Assembly: GCA_016874175.1 (NCBI GenBank)
Contig: VGUP01000003.1
Location: forward strand, 1 to 52,826
Direction of reading: 5' to 3'
DNA from: Gammaproteobacteria bacterium
GTDB lineage: Bacteria; Pseudomonadota; Gammaproteobacteria; Steroidobacterales; Steroidobacteraceae
Length of the DNA stretch: 52,826 nt
Within the stretch, counting starts at the first letter, position 1. Each line of letters starts with the position of its first letter. The notes beneath the pieces were generated by a model, which worked only from the letters and a program-made list of their open reading frames with translations, made no database searches and was not told the origin of the DNA. A program made the position numbers and the translations under genes. Shown here in pieces: positions 4,394 to 47,682 of the stretch.

Positions 4394-5452
4394 GACCGGA
4401 CTCAGCACTTTCGGATATGAGCTTGCCACGATGCATACGCGCCACCGCCGCCGCAATGGCAAGTCCGAGACCGGCGCCCGGCTGTCGCGAGGGGCGCGCG
4501 AGGCGAACGAAAGGTTTGACGGCTTGCTCGCGAGTTTAGGCCGGAATCCTCAGCCCGCGATCTTCGACGATGATCTCCGGACCCGTATCGTAAGAACCGG
4601 GGCGTACCGCGCGCGGCCTCGCTGTCGGCAGCGCACGCCGCAGCGAGCGACCGCCGCATGCGCATCGCCGGTGTGCGCAAATCGTGGGCGAGGCTCTCGG
4701 TGACCGTACGCATACCGGTGACCAGCGCTTCGTTTTGATCAAGCATTTCATTGAATGTTATGGTCAGGGCACCCATGGCGTCCAAGCGTTGTTGCGCAGG
4801 CGCGCGCGGCCATCTGTCCGCGCATGATTTGACGCGCGGTATCTGCTAACCCGCGCACGTACCCCAGAATGTAGCGATTGAGTATGAATCCGGTCCCGAG
4901 ACCGATCAGGATGACAAGGATGATGATCCCGACCGCCACCCGGCCAAGAGCTTTGGCGATTTCGAAGCGAGCGGTGTCGGGTTGGGTAACGATGAAAATA
5001 CTGCCGTCGGCGAGACGGGCGGATCTGACATAGGTATCGAGCCCATCGCCTTTCGGAATCCGGTACGCAGCCGAGTCTGCTTCGAGTGCCTGCTCGCTTG
5101 CGGGCACCTTGGCCAAATCACCAACGACCGCGTTACCATTCGGATCGAGCAGTACGAAGTAGCGTTTGTCGGGAATGGTCTCGTTGCTGATGCGGAAGGA
5201 TGTAGGTAACGCAGCCCGATCCTCCGCGTTGTCCATTCGCGTGGTCAAAATGATGGCGCGCTCGAGCGACTGGAACAGCTCGCGATCGTGCACGGACATG
5301 ATGCGCCACTGTAACCAGATGAAGCCGAGCACGAAGGCCACGACCATCATGCCGAGCGCAAACAGCGATGCCGTGAGTGCGCGGCGATCGAAAAGTACGG
5401 GAAGCATGTCCCAAGCATGCCACGCCGAGGATGAGAAGCCCAAATGAGTCAA
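4391..5452 (-). pseudogene. Decayed sensor histidine kinase
   Basis: TM/sensor part 4748-5452 (start probably 5407, MLPVLFDRR); HAMP/H-box (LAHDLRTP) continues in another frame; ATPase remnant EIIVEDRGLRIPA*TREQAVKPFVRL...GAGLGLAIAAAVARMHRG with TAA at 4536-4538; most of the DHp-to-G1 region missing. Confidence 0.85.
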
Positions 5453-6115
5453 TTACTGCTGATCGAAAATGACGCCGAGACGGCGGCCGAGATCGTCGCT
5501 GCGACGCGCAACAGCGGACATCACATCAGTCACGTCATGGATGGCAAAACCCGGTTGGATCTCGCCCTTGCCGGTCACTTCGATGTCGTCGTGACCGATC
5601 GCATGCTGCCCGGGCTCGACGGCCTCGGTATCGTCAAAGCCTTGCGCGAATCCGGCAAGTCGATGCCCGTCATCATGCTCTCGGCACTCGACTCAGTCGA
5701 CGAAAGGGTCAAGGGACTGCGTGCGGGCGGCGACGATTATCTCGGCTAGCCTTTTGCGACCGATGAATTGCTGGCGCGTATCGAATCATTGATTCGCCGA
5801 CATCAACAGAGTGCGGTCACCTCGTTGCAGGTCGAAGATCTTCATCTTGATCTGCTTGATCGCACCGCGACGCGGGCCGGTCGAGCACTCGATCTCACGA
5901 CCCGCGAGTTTCGACTCCTCGAATACTTTGTCCGCCACGCAGGTCAGATGGTCACTCGCACCATGCTGCTGCAGAGCGTCTGGGATATTCACTATGATCC
6001 GCAGACCAATGTGGTCGATGGGCACGTGAGCCGTCTGCGTCAGGAGGTCGATCGGGATGCCGAGCAGCCCTTGATCGTCACCGTGCGCAGCGTGGGCTAT
6101 ACGCTGCGCGGCTGA
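5444..6115 (+). pseudogene. OmpR-family response regulator with in-frame TAG
   Basis: GGDDYLG-TAG-PFATDELLARIE; stop at 5747-5749 in the same frame as the intact wHTH half 5768-6115. Confidence 0.85.
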
Positions 6116-6729
6116 GTCGAGCGCGCCACGAACGCCGCCACGACATCGCGCAGCTCGTGTAGCCGAGCGTGGAAAAAATGGTCGGCCTCGGGCAGTCGGA
6201 CCAAGCTTGACGCACCGCTCGCGCGTACCCACTGCTCGACCGCGTTCGCATCGACCATATCATCGCGATCACCCTGAATCACGAGCCAGGGACTCTGCGG
6301 TGGCGAAATCTTTGAAAAGTCCCAGCGGCTAACGGGCGGCGCCACCGTGACGAGCAGCGCTGGCGATACTGGTGCGCGCAGCGCGATCCATGCACCGAAC
6401 GAAAAACCGCCCAGCCAAAGCGGCAAATCAGGCCAACGCTCACGTGCCCACTTGGCGAGCGCGATGACGTCATCGACTTCGCCGCGACCGTCGTCATGCA
6501 CCCCCGCCGATGCGCCTACCCCGCGAAAATTGAAGCGAGTGACCACGGCACCGGCGGCCAAGAAAGCCTTGGCGACGGTGTGAATGACCTTGTTGGCCAT
6601 CGAGCCACCGAACAACGGGTGGGGATGACAACAAATCGCCACCGCCACGGGCGTCCCCGACGGCGACTCGACCAAAGTTTCGATGTCGCCGGCCGCACCC
6701 GGAAACAGTATCCGTTCGACAGCGGTCAC
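6097..6729 (-). CDS. alpha/beta hydrolase
   Basis: CCHPHPLFGGSMANKV, GGFSFGAW nucleophile elbow. Confidence 0.85.
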   Translation of the reverse strand: MTAVERILFPGAAGDIETLVESPSGTPVAVAICCHPHPLFGGSMANKVIHTVAKAFLAAGAVVTRFNFRGVGASAGVHDDGRGEVDDVIALAKWARERWPDLPLWLGGFSFGAWIALRAPVSPALLVTVAPPVSRWDFSKISPPQSPWLVIQGDRDDMVDANAVEQWVRASGASSLVRLPEADHFFHARLHELRDVVAAFVARSTQPRSV

Positions 6730-6747
6730 GCGGGTGGACCCACCGAC

Positions 6748-8043
6748 TCAGGGTTGGCGATGGACGGTACCGTCTTTCATCACGAAGTTGACGCGACGCA
6801 TCGCCGAAATATCGGCGAGTGGATCGCCGGACACGGCAACCAGGTCAGCAATTTTGCCAACCTGCACGCTGCCGAGACGGTCGTCGATCTCGAGAAACTT
6901 TGCAGCGACCGACGTTGCCGACTTGATGGCTTCGAGGGGTGGCATACCGGCCTCGACCATGAGGACGAATTCCCGCGCATTATCGCCATGCGCCGAAACA
7001 CCCGTGTCGGTGCCGAAGACGATCTTTACGCCGGCTTCGTAAGCCTTGGCAAAAGTCCCCTGAATCTGCGGCCCGATCATCGCCGCCTTCGGTCGGACCA
7101 GCGCCGGAAAGAACCCGTCTTCTTTCGATCGATCGAACACCCAACGCCCCGCGGTGATGGTCGGCACGTAGCACGTGCCCCGCTCCTTCATGAGTGCGAT
7201 GGTTTCGTCGTCCATGAAAGTGCCGTGCTCGATACTGTCGACACCCGCGCGTACGGCGCGCTTCATGCCCTCGGCGCCGTGGGCATGTGCGGCCACCTTG
7301 AAGCCGTAGTCGCGAGCGGTGGCGACGATGGTGCGGATTTCGTCTTCGGTGAATTGCGGATTCAGTCCGTTCTTTGCAATCGACAGCACGCCACCGGTCG
7401 CCGTGATCTTGATAAGGTCCGAGCCCTCTTTGTAGCGTTGACGAACGGTCTGGGCACCCTGCTCTGCGCCATTCACCACGCCGTCGACCGGACCGACGTT
7501 GCCGCCACCCAAAAAATCCGCCCAACCATTGGTGGGATCGGCGTGACCACCCGTGCTGGCGATCGACTTGCCCGCAGCAAAGATTCGCGGCCCGGTCACC
7601 TTGCCGGCGTTGATGGCATTGCGCAGCGCAATGCTGGCGAGAAAGCTGTCGCCGAGATCGCGCACCGTGGTGAAACCCGCCTGCAAGGTACGCGCCGCGT
7701 AGAGCACACCATCGAGTGCAACATCAGGACCGTCTTTTTTGAACCGATCGAGTTCGCTAGTCCGACTGTACTCGCTGGTCAGATGCACATGCATATCCAT
7801 GAGTCCGGGCATCAGCGTCGACTTGCGCAGATCGATGACCGTGTCGCCAGCCGCGGGCTTGCGATAGCCCGACTCGATGCCGGTAATGCGACCTTGATCG
7901 ACCACCACCGTACGCTCGGTCATGACCTGATCGCTGACACCGTCAATTACACGCCCGGCATGAATCAAGGTTGCCGCCTGCGCGCCGCTCGCGAGCACGG
8001 CCACCACACAAACGAATGTCGCACCGATGGTTCTGGTGATCAT
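6748..8043 (-). CDS. Exported amidohydrolase-family metalloenzyme
   Basis: Signal peptide; DMHVHL, HAHG, SIEHGT, FGTDTG motifs. Confidence 0.85.
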
Positions 8044-35914: not shown

Positions 35915-36131
35915 TCAAGCGCCATTTTTGGTATTACAATGAAGAAACGCACTAGACAGTTCGTGTTTGGTGCTTATTTCGGATGCATTGACGGAGTTCT
36001 GTTCAATTCTGCCGATGGCTCTCACGGCCTTTGTAACTATAGGGTGCTCATCCCCCAGCAAATCACGAAGTCTTTTTACGAGAGTTTCCAAATAAGATTG
36101 ACGTTGGTCCGTTTTTCGAACTACTTAAAAC
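35915..36131 (-). pseudogene. 3' remnant of the IS-disrupted Ser/Thr kinase (TPR end)
   Basis: VRKTDQRQSYLETLVKRLRDLLGDEHPIVTKAVRAIGRIEQNS...*; TPR-like (LGDEHP) reading toward the same strand as the kinase. Confidence 0.6.
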
Positions 36132-36981
36132 TAGAGTTCGGTGCCTCGGAGCCGTTTCCTGACCATCGTTTTGCGAACTCACTCGGGGTCAGATGACCGA
36201 GCGACCCGTGTGGACGGCAGTGATTGTAGTCCTGCCTCCACGCCTTCAAAACCTCTTTCACGTGGTCGAGCGTAGCAAACTCATTCACGTTCAGACACTC
36301 ATCACGCAGCCGTCCATTAAACGACTCAATCATCCCGTTCTCGGTGGGTTTGCCGGGTCGGATGAAGTCGAGCTTCACGCCTCGGAAATAACACCACTCG
36401 TCGAGCGCTTTGGACGTAAATTCCGTTCCGTGGTCGACAGTTATCGCAAAAGGTAAAGATCTCTCGAGCGCCACTTCGTTCAACGCATCGATGACACTTT
36501 GACCCGTCAAAGAGAAATCCGCCTGCAGCGCCACACACTGTCGATGCCACTTGTCGATGATCGTCAGTACGCGGAACTTCCGACCACTGGCAAGCTGATC
36601 GTGGACGAAGTCCATGGCCCAGTACTGCCCGGCCGCCAGCGCTGTGGGCGAGGGACCGCGGTGCAGGCTGATGCGCTTCTTTCGTCGCACTCTCATACGC
36701 ACCTGGAGGCCCTCCAGCTTGTACAGCCGATGCACTTTGTTCCGGCCTACCTTCCAGCCCTCTCGAGTTAGCAAAATGTGCAGACGTTCGTATCCGAACC
36801 GCGGCCTCGCTGTTGCCAGCTCGCGTAACCGCTGTCGTAGTACGCTCACATCGCGTGCCTGCGAGCGGTAGTACCACGTCGCCACCCGCAAGCCGATGAG
36901 CCGGCAGGACCGCTGCACGCTCAACCGAAAGCAATCTTGTATCCATCGTGCAATATCTCGGCGCCGGTAGACCGCTAAATC
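36121..36981 (-). CDS. IS3-family transposase OrfB (made by -1 frameshift from OrfA)
   Basis: AMDFVHDQLASGRKFRVLTIIDKWHRQCVALQ, TVDHGTEF, RPGKPTENGMIESFNGRLRDECLN (DDE). Confidence 0.92.
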   Translation of the reverse strand, partial: DLAVYRRRDIARWIQDCFRLSVQRSCRLIGLRVATWYYRSQARDVSVLRQRLRELATARPRFGYERLHILLTREGWKVGRNKVHRLYKLEGLQVRMRVRRKKRISLHRGPSPTALAAGQYWAMDFVHDQLASGRKFRVLTIIDKWHRQCVALQADFSLTGQSVIDALNEVALERSLPFAITVDHGTEFTSKALDEWCYFRGVKLDFIRPGKPTENGMIESFNGRLRDECLNVNEFATLDHVKEVLKAWRQDYNHCRPHGSLGHLTPSEFAKRWSGNGSEAPNSSFK

Positions 36982-41165: not shown

Positions 41166-41939
41166 CTAGTCGTCGTCGGAACGTTCAGGTCCGTTCTTCA
41201 GTCGCGTTTGATGCGAGTGTACGAATTTGTTTCCGTACACGTCTTCGCCTTTGTGATATCGACGACCGACGCCATCGGGTCGCAGCGGATCGCGCTCGGT
41301 GCGTTCGCGACCGAAGTCACGCGCTGCCTGCTGCTCGGCAGCGATCTGCTCGGGCGTGAATAAACTGCAGCCATCGACAAGGTCGAAGTTTTCCACGAAC
41401 TGGCGGGGGATGGGCATGACACCCGCGATGACGTCGCCCACCTGAATCTCCACCGGAAAGTTCGCGCGAGTGATTTTGAGATTGAAGGTGAAATCGCGGC
41501 GCAGGTTGTCGGTCTCGACCACACCCGCCATATTCTGCAAGCCATCAATGAAATAATTGGGTGGCTGCAAGGTCATGAGGTTGATACCGGGCGGCGTGCG
41601 CAGCGCGAAGGCCGCCTGAACGGTGACGATGCCAAGCCCGAAGTTGGAGACCATGGTCTGCAGGCTGCCATGACGGGTCTCGTCTTCGGTGTTATGGATA
41701 GTGACTATGGTATCGGCGGGGTCCGGACCGCCATTCCAAAGAAAAGTCGCGCGCCACAAGGAGCGCATCGCAAGCCCGTACTGATTGCCGATCACCAGCG
41801 GCAGGCAAAAATACGCATGGCGCGAGAACCAGTCACGCTTGTTGCGCCCACGCAGATTGAAGTAGACCTGCTCGTGCTTGCCACGATAAAAATCGTCGTA
41901 GGGAATGGCGGCGATGGTATTATCGGGAACCTTGATCAT
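41166..41939 (-). CDS. DUF6065-like protein
   Basis: FCLPLVIGNQYGL, FLWNGG, FGLGIVTVQAAFALRTPPGINLM, MAGVVETDNLRRDFTFNLKITR; family from memory. Confidence 0.6.
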   Translation of the reverse strand: MIKVPDNTIAAIPYDDFYRGKHEQVYFNLRGRNKRDWFSRHAYFCLPLVIGNQYGLAMRSLWRATFLWNGGPDPADTIVTIHNTEDETRHGSLQTMVSNFGLGIVTVQAAFALRTPPGINLMTLQPPNYFIDGLQNMAGVVETDNLRRDFTFNLKITRANFPVEIQVGDVIAGVMPIPRQFVENFDLVDGCSLFTPEQIAAEQQAARDFGRERTERDPLRPDGVGRRYHKGEDVYGNKFVHSHQTRLKNGPERSDDD

Positions 41940-41957
41940 GTGACGACAAGTTACAGT

Positions 41958-42560
41958 TCAAAATTCGAAGCGGTGGTCAGGATCGAAAGTAATGAAAGAC
42001 GCGATGGTGTGTCGCATGCCGCGCGTCACTCGACGCACTCCATGCAGGAAAAACATCGTACCCGGAAACACCACCAGCATGCGCGGTTGGGGCTTGAGTT
42101 CAAGCCCAAGATTCGGGAAGTGGATCTCGCCGCCATCATAGTCATCGTTCAAATAAATGACCGTAGCGAAGTCGCGCCAAGGATACGGATGCGGAGCGCC
42201 ATGCGGATTTTCGCTGTCGGCATGCGGCTGCAACTCGTAGCCGGGTGGCCAGCGCGCGTAGTTGATGAGGTCTGAGTAAAGCGGCGGCTGCGGTCCGAGT
42301 TGCTCGGTCAGTACGGCGGTGAGCTTGGCGATAGCCCGATCGCGGGTCTGGCGAAATATTCCGCGGATGAGCTCATCGTCGATATCCGTGGGCGTGAGCG
42401 TCCGGCCTTTCCAATAATCGCCGGCATCAGGCATGCCAAAGGCGGCATCATTACGCTCCGCGAAGCCGAGCAAAGCGGCATATTCGTTAACGGTGAGAAA
42501 CGCTGGATCGATCAGCGGAAAGATCGGCAGCGCGTCGATATCAGCGCGGGACGCGCGCAT
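41958..42560 (-). CDS. Prolyl-4-hydroxylase-like 2OG-Fe(II) oxygenase
   Basis: LQPHADSE (HxD), DFATVIYLNDDYDGGEIHFPNLGLELKPQPRMLVVFPG, LHGVRRVTRGMRHTIASF. Confidence 0.88.
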   Translation of the reverse strand: MRASRADIDALPIFPLIDPAFLTVNEYAALLGFAERNDAAFGMPDAGDYWKGRTLTPTDIDDELIRGIFRQTRDRAIAKLTAVLTEQLGPQPPLYSDLINYARWPPGYELQPHADSENPHGAPHPYPWRDFATVIYLNDDYDGGEIHFPNLGLELKPQPRMLVVFPGTMFFLHGVRRVTRGMRHTIASFITFDPDHRFEF

Positions 42561-42563
42561 CGG

Positions 42564-42800
42564 TCAGGCCTCGGGCGCCGGCGGCGGGTCGTTGGAGATG
42601 GTCGTCTGGGCAGCGGCGTTTTCGACAGCCTTGATTTGCGCCACACGCATCCGCAGCGTGCGCTCCATGACATCGAGCGCGGTACCTTCTGGCCAGCCGT
42701 TGCGAATCATCGATTCGAGCACTGACTCGGGGCTTTGGCCGGCCTCGATTTGCTTGACGATCCAATGCCGCAGTTGCGGCGTGACCCTGCCGTGACTCAT
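42564..42800 (-). CDS. Small helical protein resembling an N-terminal module of some 2OG oxygenases
   Basis: MSHGRVTPQLRHWIVKQIEAGQSPESVLESMIRNGWPEGTALDVMERTL; ATGA overlap with the symporter gene. Confidence 0.6.
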   Translation of the reverse strand: MSHGRVTPQLRHWIVKQIEAGQSPESVLESMIRNGWPEGTALDVMERTLRMRVAQIKAVENAAAQTTISNDPPPAPEA

Positions 42801-44293
42801 GACGCGGAGGATAGCCGAGTCCCCTTGCCGATGGGCAAGAGGGCGAAACCTACGCAAAGCGCCGCTCCGAGCGGAAACAGCCAAGGAAATGCCACCAACT
42901 CACGCTCGCTGGTGAAGCCGAAAAACTGTGCGTTATGGACCAGTAACACGCCGATGAGTGAAACCGCCACGCCTAGCGGCGCGTTACGGATCCGTTCGCG
43001 CGAGACGAACAAGGCGAGCAGAAAAAGTCCGAGCATCGGACCATAGGTGTACGCCGTCATGGCGAAAGCGAGCGGAGTCAGCCGTTCGTCGGAGCCTGCC
43101 AGCAGCAAGGCGAAGCCACCCAGAACCAACGCCCAGACGATCACCAGAATGCGCGACAGCATCACCGCCCTCGCCTCGTCTAGCGTGCCGTTGCGATGCC
43201 CCTCGTGAAACATGGTGATACTGGTCTCGGAAAGCGCCGAAAGCACCGGGCTCGACATGGCCGCCGCAAACAGCGCTGCCACCATGAAGCCGCGTAGTCC
43301 GGTCGGCATCTCGGACAGAATAAATGCCGGGAAAATACGATCGACGTTTTCGGCTATCAGCGGTGCGAACGCCGGGTCGACCGCGTTCAAGCTGTAATAA
43401 CCCCAAAGGGCGACGCCCACCATCAAAAATAACACCACGACCAGCTCGCCGAGGTTGCTGACATAAAGCGCAATGCGCGCCTCGCGTACCGATCGACAAC
43501 ACAGCATGCGCTGCGTGTTCAACTGATCCGTACCGTAGGCCGCAAGATTCTGGAACGGCATCGCGAAGGCACCGGCCCAAAGCGTGAAGTTGACGCGCGG
43601 ATCGGTGCTCCACTCGATGACATGCGTCTTGCCCGCAGAATCCGCAGCTGACAACAAGCCTGTTAAGCCATCGGGAAAGGTTTGCGTAACAAAAAGAATC
43701 GCCATTAAACCGGCGGCGACGAACATGCAGAACTGCAGCACGTCGGACCAAACCACGGCACGAATTCCGCCGAGCATGGTGCTGAGCGCGGCCACACCTA
43801 CGCTGAGCGCGACGCAACCGGCAAAATCGAGGCCGGTAAGCAACTCGAGGACGAGCGCGACCGCAAACACTCGAACACCCTGACCGAGCACCGCACCAAT
43901 GAAAAAGAGCAGCGCCGACAGTTTGCCGAACACCGGGCCGAGCTTGTCGCGGATGAAGTCGTAGGGACTCGCGTAATTCTTTTCGTACAGACGCGGCAAA
44001 ATGAAGTGTCCGAGAATGGTCTTGGAAATAAGCCCCGCCAAACAGAACTGCAGATAGCGAAAGTCGCCGCCTTGTGCGAATACCAGCGCCGGCACGCCGA
44101 TGAAGGTAACGCCGCTCACTGCGGTGGCGACGATCGACATCGACACGGCATACCAAGGCAAAGAGCGCGAACCGAGGAAGTACTCGCGTGTGCTGCCCTG
44201 CAAATCTTTGACGTGATGACCGATCCAGGTCACGAGGGCGAAATACGCCCCAACCATCGTCCAGTCGAGTACATGAAAATAATTGCTGCCCAC
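42797..44293 (-). CDS. Sodium:solute symporter (SSS family)
   Basis: Multi-TM; STREYFLGSRSLPWYAVSMSIVATAVSGVTFIGVPALVFAQGGDFRYLQ. Confidence 0.88.
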   Translation of the reverse strand: MGSNYFHVLDWTMVGAYFALVTWIGHHVKDLQGSTREYFLGSRSLPWYAVSMSIVATAVSGVTFIGVPALVFAQGGDFRYLQFCLAGLISKTILGHFILPRLYEKNYASPYDFIRDKLGPVFGKLSALLFFIGAVLGQGVRVFAVALVLELLTGLDFAGCVALSVGVAALSTMLGGIRAVVWSDVLQFCMFVAAGLMAILFVTQTFPDGLTGLLSAADSAGKTHVIEWSTDPRVNFTLWAGAFAMPFQNLAAYGTDQLNTQRMLCCRSVREARIALYVSNLGELVVVLFLMVGVALWGYYSLNAVDPAFAPLIAENVDRIFPAFILSEMPTGLRGFMVAALFAAAMSSPVLSALSETSITMFHEGHRNGTLDEARAVMLSRILVIVWALVLGGFALLLAGSDERLTPLAFAMTAYTYGPMLGLFLLALFVSRERIRNAPLGVAVSLIGVLLVHNAQFFGFTSERELVAFPWLFPLGAALCVGFALLPIGKGTRLSSAS

Positions 44294-44342
44294 GACCGAT
44301 GTACCTCGGAGAATCGTTAGGTAGCCACGTCAGGTCGCCCCG

Positions 44343-45143
44343 TTAGGCGACCGCCGACCGGCGCAGGGTCCGTCCCGAGCCGCGGCCCGGATAGACGCGA
44401 CCGTTCGCACCGGGATACGCATAACCGTTGATGAGTATACGACGTGGAACGTCCGATTCGTTCGACATACTGCCGTGGATGGCGTAAGGACCAAAGAATA
44501 GAACGCTTCCTGCACGACCGGTGATAGTCACGGCTTGCGACTCATCGAAGAACGCTGGCGTGTCGGTGCGACCCATCGGTATGTTGTAGTCATAGGACTC
44601 GGCAGACAAGCGCAACGTATCGCTACCGCGGACCGCGCTGCGAGGAATGAACTTCAACGGACCATTAGCCTCGGTCATGTCATCGATGAGCATGATGGTC
44701 TGCACGTAGGAGCCGCGACCGTTGAGATCCCGCCAAGTGCCCGGGCCCTTGTCGCGGTGCTGCACATCCTGATGCCAATCGAAGGAGACCCCATCCCGCG
44801 GCATCTTGAAGTGCGCCTGGCAAAGCAGTTGCTCGCAATGGTCGCTGCCGAGCAGATCGAGTGCGGGCTCGATCAAGCGCCGATCAGCGCCGAGCGCCAG
44901 CAGGTCAGGCTCTGCGCCTCCGGCCCATACAACCCGCTTGACGATGACCTCGCCTTTGGGCGGGGCTTCGAGCACGAAATAGGCGCCTTCATGGTCTTGG
45001 GTGCTACGCAAAACCTGCGCCGCGCCATACAGTCGCTCGAATGCCGCCCGGGCCGTGCGCATCTCATCGAGGCTGAACAGCCCCCCCACGACCGTCCATC
45101 CTTGAGCAAAGAACTCATCCACCTGTGCCACCGAAAATCTCAT
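44343..45143 (-). CDS. Phytanoyl-CoA dioxygenase (PhyH) family 2OG oxygenase
   Basis: VSFDWHQDVQHRD (HxD), NGPLKFIPRSAVRGSD, GSVLFFGPYAIHGSMSN. Confidence 0.88.
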   Translation of the reverse strand: MRFSVAQVDEFFAQGWTVVGGLFSLDEMRTARAAFERLYGAAQVLRSTQDHEGAYFVLEAPPKGEVIVKRVVWAGGAEPDLLALGADRRLIEPALDLLGSDHCEQLLCQAHFKMPRDGVSFDWHQDVQHRDKGPGTWRDLNGRGSYVQTIMLIDDMTEANGPLKFIPRSAVRGSDTLRLSAESYDYNIPMGRTDTPAFFDESQAVTITGRAGSVLFFGPYAIHGSMSNESDVPRRILINGYAYPGANGRVYPGRGSGRTLRRSAVA

Positions 45144-45266
45144 CGCTGACACTCTAGCCGATCCGCAGCAAAGCAGGCGGGTCGACGAATGGATCGCTTG
45201 GTGCCAATATCGTTTGCGGTGGATTCTCGCCCGACCCACGGTCACTTTTCGACATCAGCGCCCGCC

Positions 45267-46427
45267 ATGACCGATCGCAACCGAACTTTGGATGTGTTTC
45301 GCGGCGCGACTGTCGCCCTGATGATCCTCGTGAATAATCCGGGCTCATGGGCGAGTCTCTATCCGCCACTTGCGCATGCGACTTGGCACGGGTGGACACT
45401 CACTGATCTGGTTTTTCCATTTTTTTTGTTTGCAGTAGGTAACGCTATTGCACTAACCCCGACGCGCACCGCCAGCAACACCCAATTTTGGAAGCGCTGG
45501 ACACGTCGAACGCTGCTGATATTCGGTATCGGTCTGTTGCTCAATGTCTGGCCCTTCGTCAAGTGGGGAGCGGATGGCGGCCTGCAGTTCAAAGAGTTCG
45601 AAACGCTGCGCATCATGGGGGTTTTACAGCGGATCGCCCTGTGCTGGGCGTGCGCGGCCCTGATCGTGCGTAGCGGCGGTGTACGTGCCGCCTGGTTTTG
45701 CAGTGCATTTTTGCTGATCGGCTATTGGTGGGCGTGTGTCGCTTTCGCCCATGGAGTCGACCCGTATTCACTCGAGGGTTTCTTTGGTACCACGTTGGAT
45801 CGAGTGCTGCTCGGTGAATCTCACCTGTACCGCGGCGAAGGTGTGCCCTTCGACCCCGAGGGGCTCGCAAGTACCGCTCCAGCCATCGCTCAAGTGCTAC
45901 TCGGCTACGCAGTCGGCCACTTTTTATTGCAACGTCAGCAAGCGAAATCCCTCGTTCGCGACCTGCTGTTAATCGCCATAGTTGCCGCCGCAGTCGGCTC
46001 GTTCGCACACGAGCTGATGCCGATCAACAAAAAACTCTGGACGTCGAGTTACGCACTGTTGACGACGGGGCTGGCGACGCTATCGATTGCCGTGCTGCTG
46101 CAGTGCCTAGACCGATGGCGATGGCAGCATCTATTCATCGAACCGTTGCTGCGCGGCTGTGAGGCGTTTGGCCGCAATGCCCTGCTGATTTTCGCACTCA
46201 CCGGCCTCGTACCGCGAACCCTTGCACTGATCCGCTTCGAAGAGAGTACTGACCTGGCGGGTAATCCGCAGTACGTGACGCTACTCTCTCGCTTGCATCG
46301 CGAATTCTTTGCGCCGTTGTCAGCCGATCCCCGACTTGGCTCTTTCCTGTTTGCAGTGGTGACACTGTTGGTCTATTGGCTCGTGGCAGAATGGCTACAC
46401 CGACGACGCTGGTACTTCAAGGCATGA
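45267..46427 (+). CDS. NagX/MurT-like (COG4299) membrane protein
   Basis: RTLDVFRGATVALMILVNNPGSWASLYPPLAHATWHGWTLTDLVFPFFLFAVGNAIAL. Confidence 0.8.
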   Translation: MTDRNRTLDVFRGATVALMILVNNPGSWASLYPPLAHATWHGWTLTDLVFPFFLFAVGNAIALTPTRTASNTQFWKRWTRRTLLIFGIGLLLNVWPFVKWGADGGLQFKEFETLRIMGVLQRIALCWACAALIVRSGGVRAAWFCSAFLLIGYWWACVAFAHGVDPYSLEGFFGTTLDRVLLGESHLYRGEGVPFDPEGLASTAPAIAQVLLGYAVGHFLLQRQQAKSLVRDLLLIAIVAAAVGSFAHELMPINKKLWTSSYALLTTGLATLSIAVLLQCLDRWRWQHLFIEPLLRGCEAFGRNALLIFALTGLVPRTLALIRFEESTDLAGNPQYVTLLSRLHREFFAPLSADPRLGSFLFAVVTLLVYWLVAEWLHRRRWYFKA

Positions 46428-46437
46428 TTTTGTACAG

Positions 46438-47682
46438 ATGAAACACCGCTCGAAACTCTCCGCCACTTTCTTATTGGTCTGGTCACTGCTGACTTCGCTG
46501 CCAGGCCTATCGGCCGAGCAGCGCAAGGTGGAACTCGGGATCGACGTTCTACTAGCGCCGGGCAGCCCTTATCTCGAACTGGTGGCGGGCAAGCGCGTGG
46601 GACTGATCACCAACCCGTCTGGCGTCGACGGCAACCTGGTGCCGACAGTCGATCGGCTCGCCGGAGATTCGCGATTGTCTTTGATCAGACTGTTTGGTCC
46701 TGAGCACGGCATCCGCGGTGAAGTTCCCGCTGGCGAAACCATCGCTGACGGGCGTGATCCGCGGACCGGCGTCGCCGTAGTGAGTCTCTATGGCAAAAAA
46801 AAGCGCCCCTCGAAGACGGCGCTGGCTGGCGTCGAAGTGATTCTTTTCGATATTCAGGATATTGGTTCGCGCACCTACACGTATATTTCAACGCTTGGGG
46901 AAGCACTGCATGCATGCGCTGCGACGCGTATTCCGCTCGTGGTCCTGGATCGGCCGAATCCCCTGGGTGGGCTGAACTTTGAGGGTACGCTCGTCGAAGA
47001 TCGCTTCCGCAGCTTTATCGGCTGGGGTCCGGTGCCAGTGACGCATGGCATGACGCTCGGCGAAGTGGGTCGCTATTTCAATGACCAACTCGGCATCGGC
47101 TGCGATCTGCATGTGGTGCCGATGCGCGGCTGGCGACGCTCGATGAGCTGGGATGACACAGGCCTCATCTGGAGCATCACCTCGCCCCATGTTCCCTCGG
47201 TAACCCAAGCCTATCTGTACACCACTACCGGTATGGTGGCCTCGACGGTCAAAGATATTAACGAGGGTGTCGGTTCAACGATGCCGTTTGAAATCATCGG
47301 CGCGACGTTTTTGGATGCCGCCCGGCTCGAAGAGTCACTGCAGGCCTTGCAGCTTCCGGGCGTACTTTTCCAGGCCATCCACTACAAGCCGTTTTATGGC
47401 AAGTATCGCGATGCGCCGATGCAGGGCGTCCGCCTGCGCATTACCCATCCGTCGGCCTACCGACCATTGCGCTCGGCGGTTGCGATCCTCAGCACACTAC
47501 GCAGGCTATATCCGGAACGCATCGTATTTCGCGAAGATCGGGCCATTGGCACACACTGGGGAAGTCTGAGCTTGCGTCAACAGCTCGAGGCTGGGATGGA
47601 TATCGCCGCGATAGAAAACTCCTGGCTGTCGAACACCAAAGAGTTCGCCATTGCCCGACAACGCGCGCTGCTTTACGACTAG
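46438..47682 (+). CDS. DUF1343 / NamZ-like exo-beta-N-acetylmuramidase, exported
   Basis: GKRVGLITNPSGVDGNLVPTVD, LFGPEHGIRGEVPAGE, IQDIGSRTYTYISTL, LDRPNPLGG. Confidence 0.85.
   Translation: MKHRSKLSATFLLVWSLLTSLPGLSAEQRKVELGIDVLLAPGSPYLELVAGKRVGLITNPSGVDGNLVPTVDRLAGDSRLSLIRLFGPEHGIRGEVPAGETIADGRDPRTGVAVVSLYGKKKRPSKTALAGVEVILFDIQDIGSRTYTYISTLGEALHACAATRIPLVVLDRPNPLGGLNFEGTLVEDRFRSFIGWGPVPVTHGMTLGEVGRYFNDQLGIGCDLHVVPMRGWRRSMSWDDTGLIWSITSPHVPSVTQAYLYTTTGMVASTVKDINEGVGSTMPFEIIGATFLDAARLEESLQALQLPGVLFQAIHYKPFYGKYRDAPMQGVRLRITHPSAYRPLRSAVAILSTLRRLYPERIVFREDRAIGTHWGSLSLRQQLEAGMDIAAIENSWLSNTKEFAIARQRALLYD

Follow-up and report, generated by a model that had tools for sequence, protein, structure and literature searches.

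The window analyzed here, a stretch of 52,826 nucleotides (nt) from contig VGUP01000003.1 of a Steroidobacteraceae metagenome-assembled genome (MAG; G000, 2.56 Mb in 254 contigs), contains a compact run of five genes on the minus strand, the last two of which form the P4H–DUF6065 pair that is our subject. In the order of transcription, the run encodes a PhyH-family oxygenase (44343-45143; PF05721, 5e-21, over the Pfam cut-off), an SSS-family symporter with a GTG start (42797-44293; PF00474 (SSF), 1.5e-31, over the cut-off), a small helical protein of 78 aa without a Pfam match (42564-42800), a P4H-like 2-oxoglutarate (2OG)/Fe(II) oxygenase of 200 aa (41958-42560; 2OG-FeII_Oxy_3, PF13640, 7e-11, over the cut-off), and a DUF6065 protein of 257 aa (41166-41939; PF19541, 1.9e-36, 126.2 bits against a curated cut-off of 26.6). 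The intergenic gaps were 49, -4 (ATGA), 3, and 18 nt, so that the coordinates and spacing of the original prediction, which had been made from the DNA letters, were exactly confirmed.

The extent of the conserved unit was determined by a survey of the genus. DUF6065 was found in 11 of 24 genomes, and the same 11 genomes carried the P4H gene, always adjacent to DUF6065 and with the small gene preceding. This three-gene block (hereafter, the triad) was conserved at the protein level in the ten genus genomes other than that of the window, and is therefore not a product of chance. PhyH and SSS genes stood beside the triad in only three of the 11 loci (the window, G012, and G002); in G010, an SSS gene was present, but an AMP-binding (acyl-CoA synthetase type) gene lay between. 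The neighbors of the other triads were an AroD gene after and an FA_hydroxylase gene before, an EptA gene after, or Wzi/capsule-type genes. These data ruled out the five-gene set as a conserved unit: the unit is small gene–P4H–DUF6065, and PhyH and SSS are incidental neighbors in the same local strand run. Thus, co-occurrence in other genomes held for the P4H–DUF6065 pair and failed for the PhyH–SSS–P4H–DUF6065 set. In G007 and G010, the DUF6065 protein was split, giving two separate matches. A Pfam survey of the class detected DUF6065 in two of 369 genomes and was uninformative on its neighbors. Five genomes of the order carried a distant DUF6065, and no relative of the window P4H was found in these five; pairing with P4H is a property of the window/phage-type subfamily and not of the whole DUF6065 Pfam family.

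We compared the sequence and structure of the three proteins with those of known families. The residues H113xD115, H173, and R183 of the P4H-like protein, corresponding to the HxD...H iron triad and the 2OG-binding Arg, were invariant among 41 bacterial and phage sequences. Its AlphaFold2 (AF2) model (predicted local distance difference test [pLDDT], 96.9) showed a double-stranded beta-helix fold. The best matches of its profile in the PDB were P3H1 (9.5e-17), B. anthracis P4H (1e-9), and PBCV-1 P4H (1e-5), and Foldseek retrieved P3H1 (4e-11), PBCV-1 vCPH (1.9e-10), and bacterial P4Hs from Bacillus and Pseudomonas. The protein is closest in both sequence and fold to prolyl hydroxylases, with an additional match to phrog_61 (4e-19) and weak similarity to Tet_JBP. 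For the DUF6065 protein (AF2 model; pLDDT, 91.3), all 34 Foldseek matches in the PDB with E<=1e-3 were dUTPases, although the superposition was partial, with template modeling (TM) scores of 0.35 by query and 0.68 by target. The protein had no match to the dUTPase Pfam family (PF00692), and hhalign gave a probability of 0.3%, with the best local match on dUTPase motif 3 only. We read the model as a dUTPase-like fold that probably serves a different function. The profile of the small protein matched the N-terminal domain of larger P4Hs, among them those of G000:C94, G013:C2, and G339; this match identifies it as the N-terminal domain of bacterial P4Hs in detached form. Its gene was present in all 11 genus triads and absent from the phage loci. 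A role as a precursor resembling ribosomally synthesized and post-translationally modified peptides, with a Pro-rich tail, was rejected because the conserved part is the P4H N-terminal domain; the tail was not conserved, and two homologues lacked Pro there.

Relatives of the DUF6065 protein were abundant in viral sequences. A scan of IMG/VR with the DUF6065 alignment, which involved no selection for P4H, confirmed 203 relatives, of which 80 were kept, and a second scan with the phage protein as the query gave 53. The 127 viral loci formed 59 clusters at 90%. A P4H gene was found near DUF6065 in 57 of these 59 clusters, at a distance of <=100 nt in 43 and <=3.5 kb in 12, and as a fusion in two; none was seen in the remaining two. 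Both gene orders occurred, as did both orders of natural fusion, namely P4H-DUF6065 in L140 (456 aa) and DUF6065-P4H in L199 (379 aa); in each, the two domains exceeded their Pfam cut-offs. Outside the genus, a scan of genome contigs recovered the pair, in both cases lacking the small gene, from L072, a planctomycete MAG (identities of 60% and 64%), and from L075, a phage contig recorded under Pseudomonas, where the pair lies between virion-type genes. The label of this record (SKFV01000118.1) is apparently wrong, as is that of L069 (CAMCBU010000004.1), a "Klebsiella pneumoniae" MAG that falls within the freshwater genus. A tblastn search of a cultured-phage collection gave no DUF6065 match, and hence the pair was not found there.

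The P4H–DUF6065 pair is thus mainly a phage module, widespread among uncultured phages. Families encoded around the phage pairs included long-tail-fibre, baseplate, and virion structural proteins, where virion localization is assigned by homology only and most viral contigs are fragments. Two or three successive P4H-like genes preceded DUF6065 in L151, L125, L146, and L153, which perhaps act on different target positions. In L167, L172, L176, L100, and related loci, DUF6065 and P4H were 1.6-3.4 kb apart, near clamp-loader and HAD/nucleotidyltransferase genes.

The pairwise distances of P4H and DUF6065 were correlated in a mirror-tree analysis (r=0.77), against a maximum of 0.16 in 2000 shuffles. 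Together with the adjacency of the two genes at all 11 bacterial loci and in 43 of the 59 viral clusters and the two types of fusion, this correlation supports P4H and DUF6065 as probable functional partners, as the original prediction had suggested for DUF6065. In both the P4H and the DUF6065 trees, the bacterial sequences were nested in phage diversity, beside phage L186. The roots and some branches of the trees were weak, and capture from phage to bacterium is therefore the likely, rather than a proven, origin of the bacterial pair.

Next, we focused on the genes accompanying the phage pairs. The gene directly upstream of the phage P4H often encoded a tail-type protein with a long Pro run (up to 36 residues), specified by mixed proline codons and usually followed by a C-terminal domain; such a gene lay immediately upstream of P4H in 16 of the 59 viral clusters. 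Pro runs of >=7 were present in 25 of the 59 pair loci and in none of 46 random viral loci (p=5e-8), the latter being drawn with a random 15-mer and not matched by phage type. Searching whole contigs added five clusters (L140, 27 Pro; L167, 45; L190, 26; L186, 8, twice; L176, ambiguous), whereas the 46 random contigs searched in the same way gave no poly-Pro gene and contained poly-Gly genes only. Overall, about half of the phage pair clusters carried a poly-Pro tract on the same contig. Poly-Gly phage loci were dropped as a control because antisense frames confound the count when overlapping open reading frames are included; the random 15-mer loci and matched phage sets were used in their place. 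A phage protein with GT7-type galactosyltransferase and concanavalin-like domains was encoded close to one pair locus (L084:5715-7151), and could glycosylate a hydroxylated tract.

A natural comparison of related phages with and without the pair linked the tract and the pair more directly. L516 and L148 share a contig, and L516 encodes a virion-region protein whose C-terminus consists of 24 Pro and a domain of ~93 residues; the P4H and DUF6065 genes come next. The counterpart of this protein in five related phages (L518-L522) ends immediately ahead of the tract and is directly succeeded by the next conserved gene. BLASTN confined the difference to L516:5940-7676 (1.74 kb), with flanks 65-87% identical at the DNA level. 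Because the block was missing whole in all five relatives, the tract, domain, P4H, and DUF6065 were gained or lost as one cassette. A neighboring gene was used to draw another matched set, which includes several near-copies; in it, L505-L509 all carried the pair with 23-32 Pro beside P4H, and L510-L515 had neither DUF6065 nor a Pro tract. This matched comparison is small, but is free of the phage-type mismatch of the random control.

Poly-Pro proteins were also found in the bacterial genus. A P4H fused to the small domain was present in 17 of the 24 genomes, and in seven of these (G000, G009, G010, G013, G014, G015, and G020) it lay <= ~0.4 kb from a poly-Pro-coding tract. Where the neighbor was read, it was a lipoprotein with 10-12 Pro; in the window genome, the fused P4H on contig C94 adjoins a lipoprotein with a 10-Pro run (L228:4484-5365 and 5303-7108). 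This proximity independently supports the action of P4Hs on poly-Pro in the genus. Secreted proteins with >=19 Pro followed by a poly-threonine tail were encoded in G014 (L049:929-1597) and in the window genome (contig C60, L227:1-140), where the contig breaks inside the Pro tract. The genes next to these are presumably YjbF/YjbH-like exopolysaccharide genes, and we take the proteins themselves to resemble GfcA/YjbE. In G014, the secreted 19-Pro protein, similar to that of C60, is encoded two genes away from the triad, on the far side of wzi. The poly-Pro proteins of the window genome are unlinked to the triad; the C94 lipoprotein and the poly-Pro/poly-Thr C-terminus cut by the C60 contig edge are candidate bacterial substrates.

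Based on these data, we propose that the functional unit comprises P4H and DUF6065, joined in the window by the detached P4H N-terminal domain, as a two-component prolyl hydroxylase for poly-Pro stalks, whose bacterial copy was captured from phage, and we assign this explanation a probability of roughly 60%. The observations underlying it are the pairing, the fusions, the nesting in phage trees, the statistical and cassette linkage to poly-Pro, and the intact active-site residues. Because the pair comes and goes with long Pro stretches in tail proteins, it probably hydroxylates those stretches. P4H would act as a 2OG/Fe(II) protein prolyl hydroxylase, and DUF6065 would be its dedicated partner, probably binding or presenting the substrate, which would be a long Pro run carried by a surface protein or a virion protein. 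In hydroxylated form, this polyproline-II stalk may be stiffer or primed for glycosylation. In phages, the pair would be applied to tail-type proteins, and the bacterial copy would act on a poly-Pro cell-surface protein.

Several observations weigh against this proposal. About half of the pair clusters lack a poly-Pro tract on the contig, although many of these contigs are short fragments. The reciprocal test, in which a poly-Pro tract should imply the pair, failed: none of 26 phage loci picked for Pro runs of >=12 contained it, and the tract therefore does not require the pair. One phage pair architecture adjoins replication genes, and the dUTPase-like fold predicted for DUF6065 does not obviously suggest a module that binds proteins. 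On the bacterial side, the window has no poly-Pro gene in the vicinity of the triad, and across the genus the presence of the triad was not associated with poly-Pro-coding DNA, a comparison confounded by GC-rich poly-Gly genes.

Among the alternatives, hydroxylation of part of the translation machinery (EF-Tu, EF-P, or a ribosomal protein), which would allow the poly-Pro tract to be translated and make the tract a beneficiary rather than the substrate, accounts for the joint gain and loss of tract and pair. It has precedents in known P4Hs and uS12 hydroxylases, and Bacillus and Pseudomonas P4Hs, one of them with a PDB title referring to EF-Tu modification, are among the close structural relatives. 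Most phage poly-Pro tracts, however, occur without the pair, and in the examined loci the pair lies beside individual poly-Pro genes and not translation genes; we consider this explanation unlikely. A little less likely still is an action on nucleotides, in which DUF6065 would be a degenerate dUTPase-like nucleotide binder and the oxygenase would serve phage DNA modification by hydroxylating a base or a nucleotide. The uniformly dUTPase Foldseek matches, the weak Tet_JBP similarity of P4H, and the phage pairs near clamp-loader and HAD/nucleotidyltransferase genes are in its favor, but DUF6065 has neither a dUTPase Pfam match nor significant profile similarity, P4H sequence and structure favor prolyl hydroxylases, and the poly-Pro cassette is left unexplained. 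That the bacterial pair no longer serves poly-Pro, being either a phage remnant, repurposed or in decay, or directed at an unrelated host protein, would fit its patchy distribution (11 of 24 genomes), the DUF6065 in two pieces in G007 and G010, and the lack of a poly-Pro gene beside the triad in the window; we regard it as improbable because, within the genus, DUF6065 and the active site of P4H are strongly conserved and the operon has been retained with an added N-terminal domain. The pathway of the original prediction, with SSS import of a small molecule or peptide, its hydroxylation by PhyH and P4H, and DUF6065 as a binding protein, draws on the tight same-strand spacing, kept in the two closest genomes, and on free amino-acid hydroxylases such as GriE among the PhyH relatives, but is highly improbable because most relatives have the triad without PhyH and SSS, neither was seen beside the planctomycete pair or among the annotated phage neighbor proteins, and the nearest relatives of P4H are protein prolyl hydroxylases.

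The PhyH and SSS genes may have a context of their own. The nearest solved relative of the SSS protein was 5nv9 (2e-37), which we take to be the sialic-acid symporter SiaT. Divergent genes for a NagX-like transmembrane acetyltransferase and a NamZ exo-N-acetylmuramidase (45189-47682) adjoin PhyH–SSS upstream, which suggests a putative locus for cell-wall amino-sugar salvage; an amino-sugar role of the symporter is plausible in this setting, and it may belong to that locus. The nearest solved relative of PhyH was the GriE leucine hydroxylase (1.5e-11), and EctD was also similar, although PhyH missed the equivalog cut-off for ectoine hydroxylase EctD (39.6 vs 336.5 bits). A convergent glycerol kinase gene lies downstream of the cluster, and an integrase-core (rve) transposase-type gene (36121-36924) lies ~5 kb away.

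The closest known counterpart of the phage enzyme is PBCV-1 vCPH (PDB 5c5t), likewise a virus-encoded small prolyl hydroxylase and among the best structural matches of P4H. It reportedly hydroxylates Pro-rich repeats of viral proteins, and we know of no DUF6065 partner in its literature. It differs in belonging to a eukaryotic algal virus with mixed Pro repeats, whereas the present P4Hs occur in phages and bacteria, are paired or fused with DUF6065, and accompany pure poly-Pro tracts. The human P3H1/CRTAP/PPIB complex (PDB 8k0e series) provides the best oxygenase-domain match and also includes a dedicated non-catalytic partner; this partner is unrelated to DUF6065, the substrate is collagen, and the catalytic domain alone is shared. 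Plant hydroxyproline-rich glycoprotein P4Hs offer an analogy, with poly-Pro/Pro-rich wall proteins as substrates and a Chlamydomonas P4H (2jig) as a structural match. They are secretory-pathway enzymes without DUF6065, and we claim no orthology beyond the P4H fold. The trimeric dUTPase family (PF00692) is alike in fold to the DUF6065 model only within the limits of the superposition and profile comparison described above.

In the available parts of the phage literature, the PBCV-1 prolyl hydroxylase is cited as a precedent (Eriksson et al. 1999, in PMC9301287), and 2OG-Fe(II) oxygenases of PHROG 61, the group matched by the window P4H, are described as widespread, with marine phages as the setting (PMC12774648). 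The role of viral P4HA "auxiliary metabolic genes" is described with the words "remains cryptic" (PMC9301287). Both papers, in these parts, leave the role open and mention neither a DUF6065 partner nor a poly-Pro cassette, and no mention of DUF6065 was found in the literature searched. The enzyme type is known; apparently new are its DUF6065 partner, the two kinds of fusion, the cassette with the poly-Pro tract, and the capture by bacteria.

These results provide the viral prolyl-hydroxylase genes, described as being of cryptic use in the available part of PMC9301287, with a candidate substrate in the poly-Pro tracts of tail proteins. DUF6065 likewise gains a candidate role as a dedicated P4H partner, and the natural comparison of phages with and without the cassette makes the idea testable. 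We regard as evenly balanced the broader picture in which many uncultured phages build hydroxyproline-rich, extensin-like tail stalks by means of P4H–DUF6065, a dedicated poly-Pro hydroxylase in two components or fused, with DUF6065 as a repurposed partner of dUTPase fold; tract and enzymes would travel as one cassette, and bacteria would have taken over the pair for surface proteins of their own. If true, protein modification based on hydroxyproline would extend to phage tails and to bacterial surfaces.

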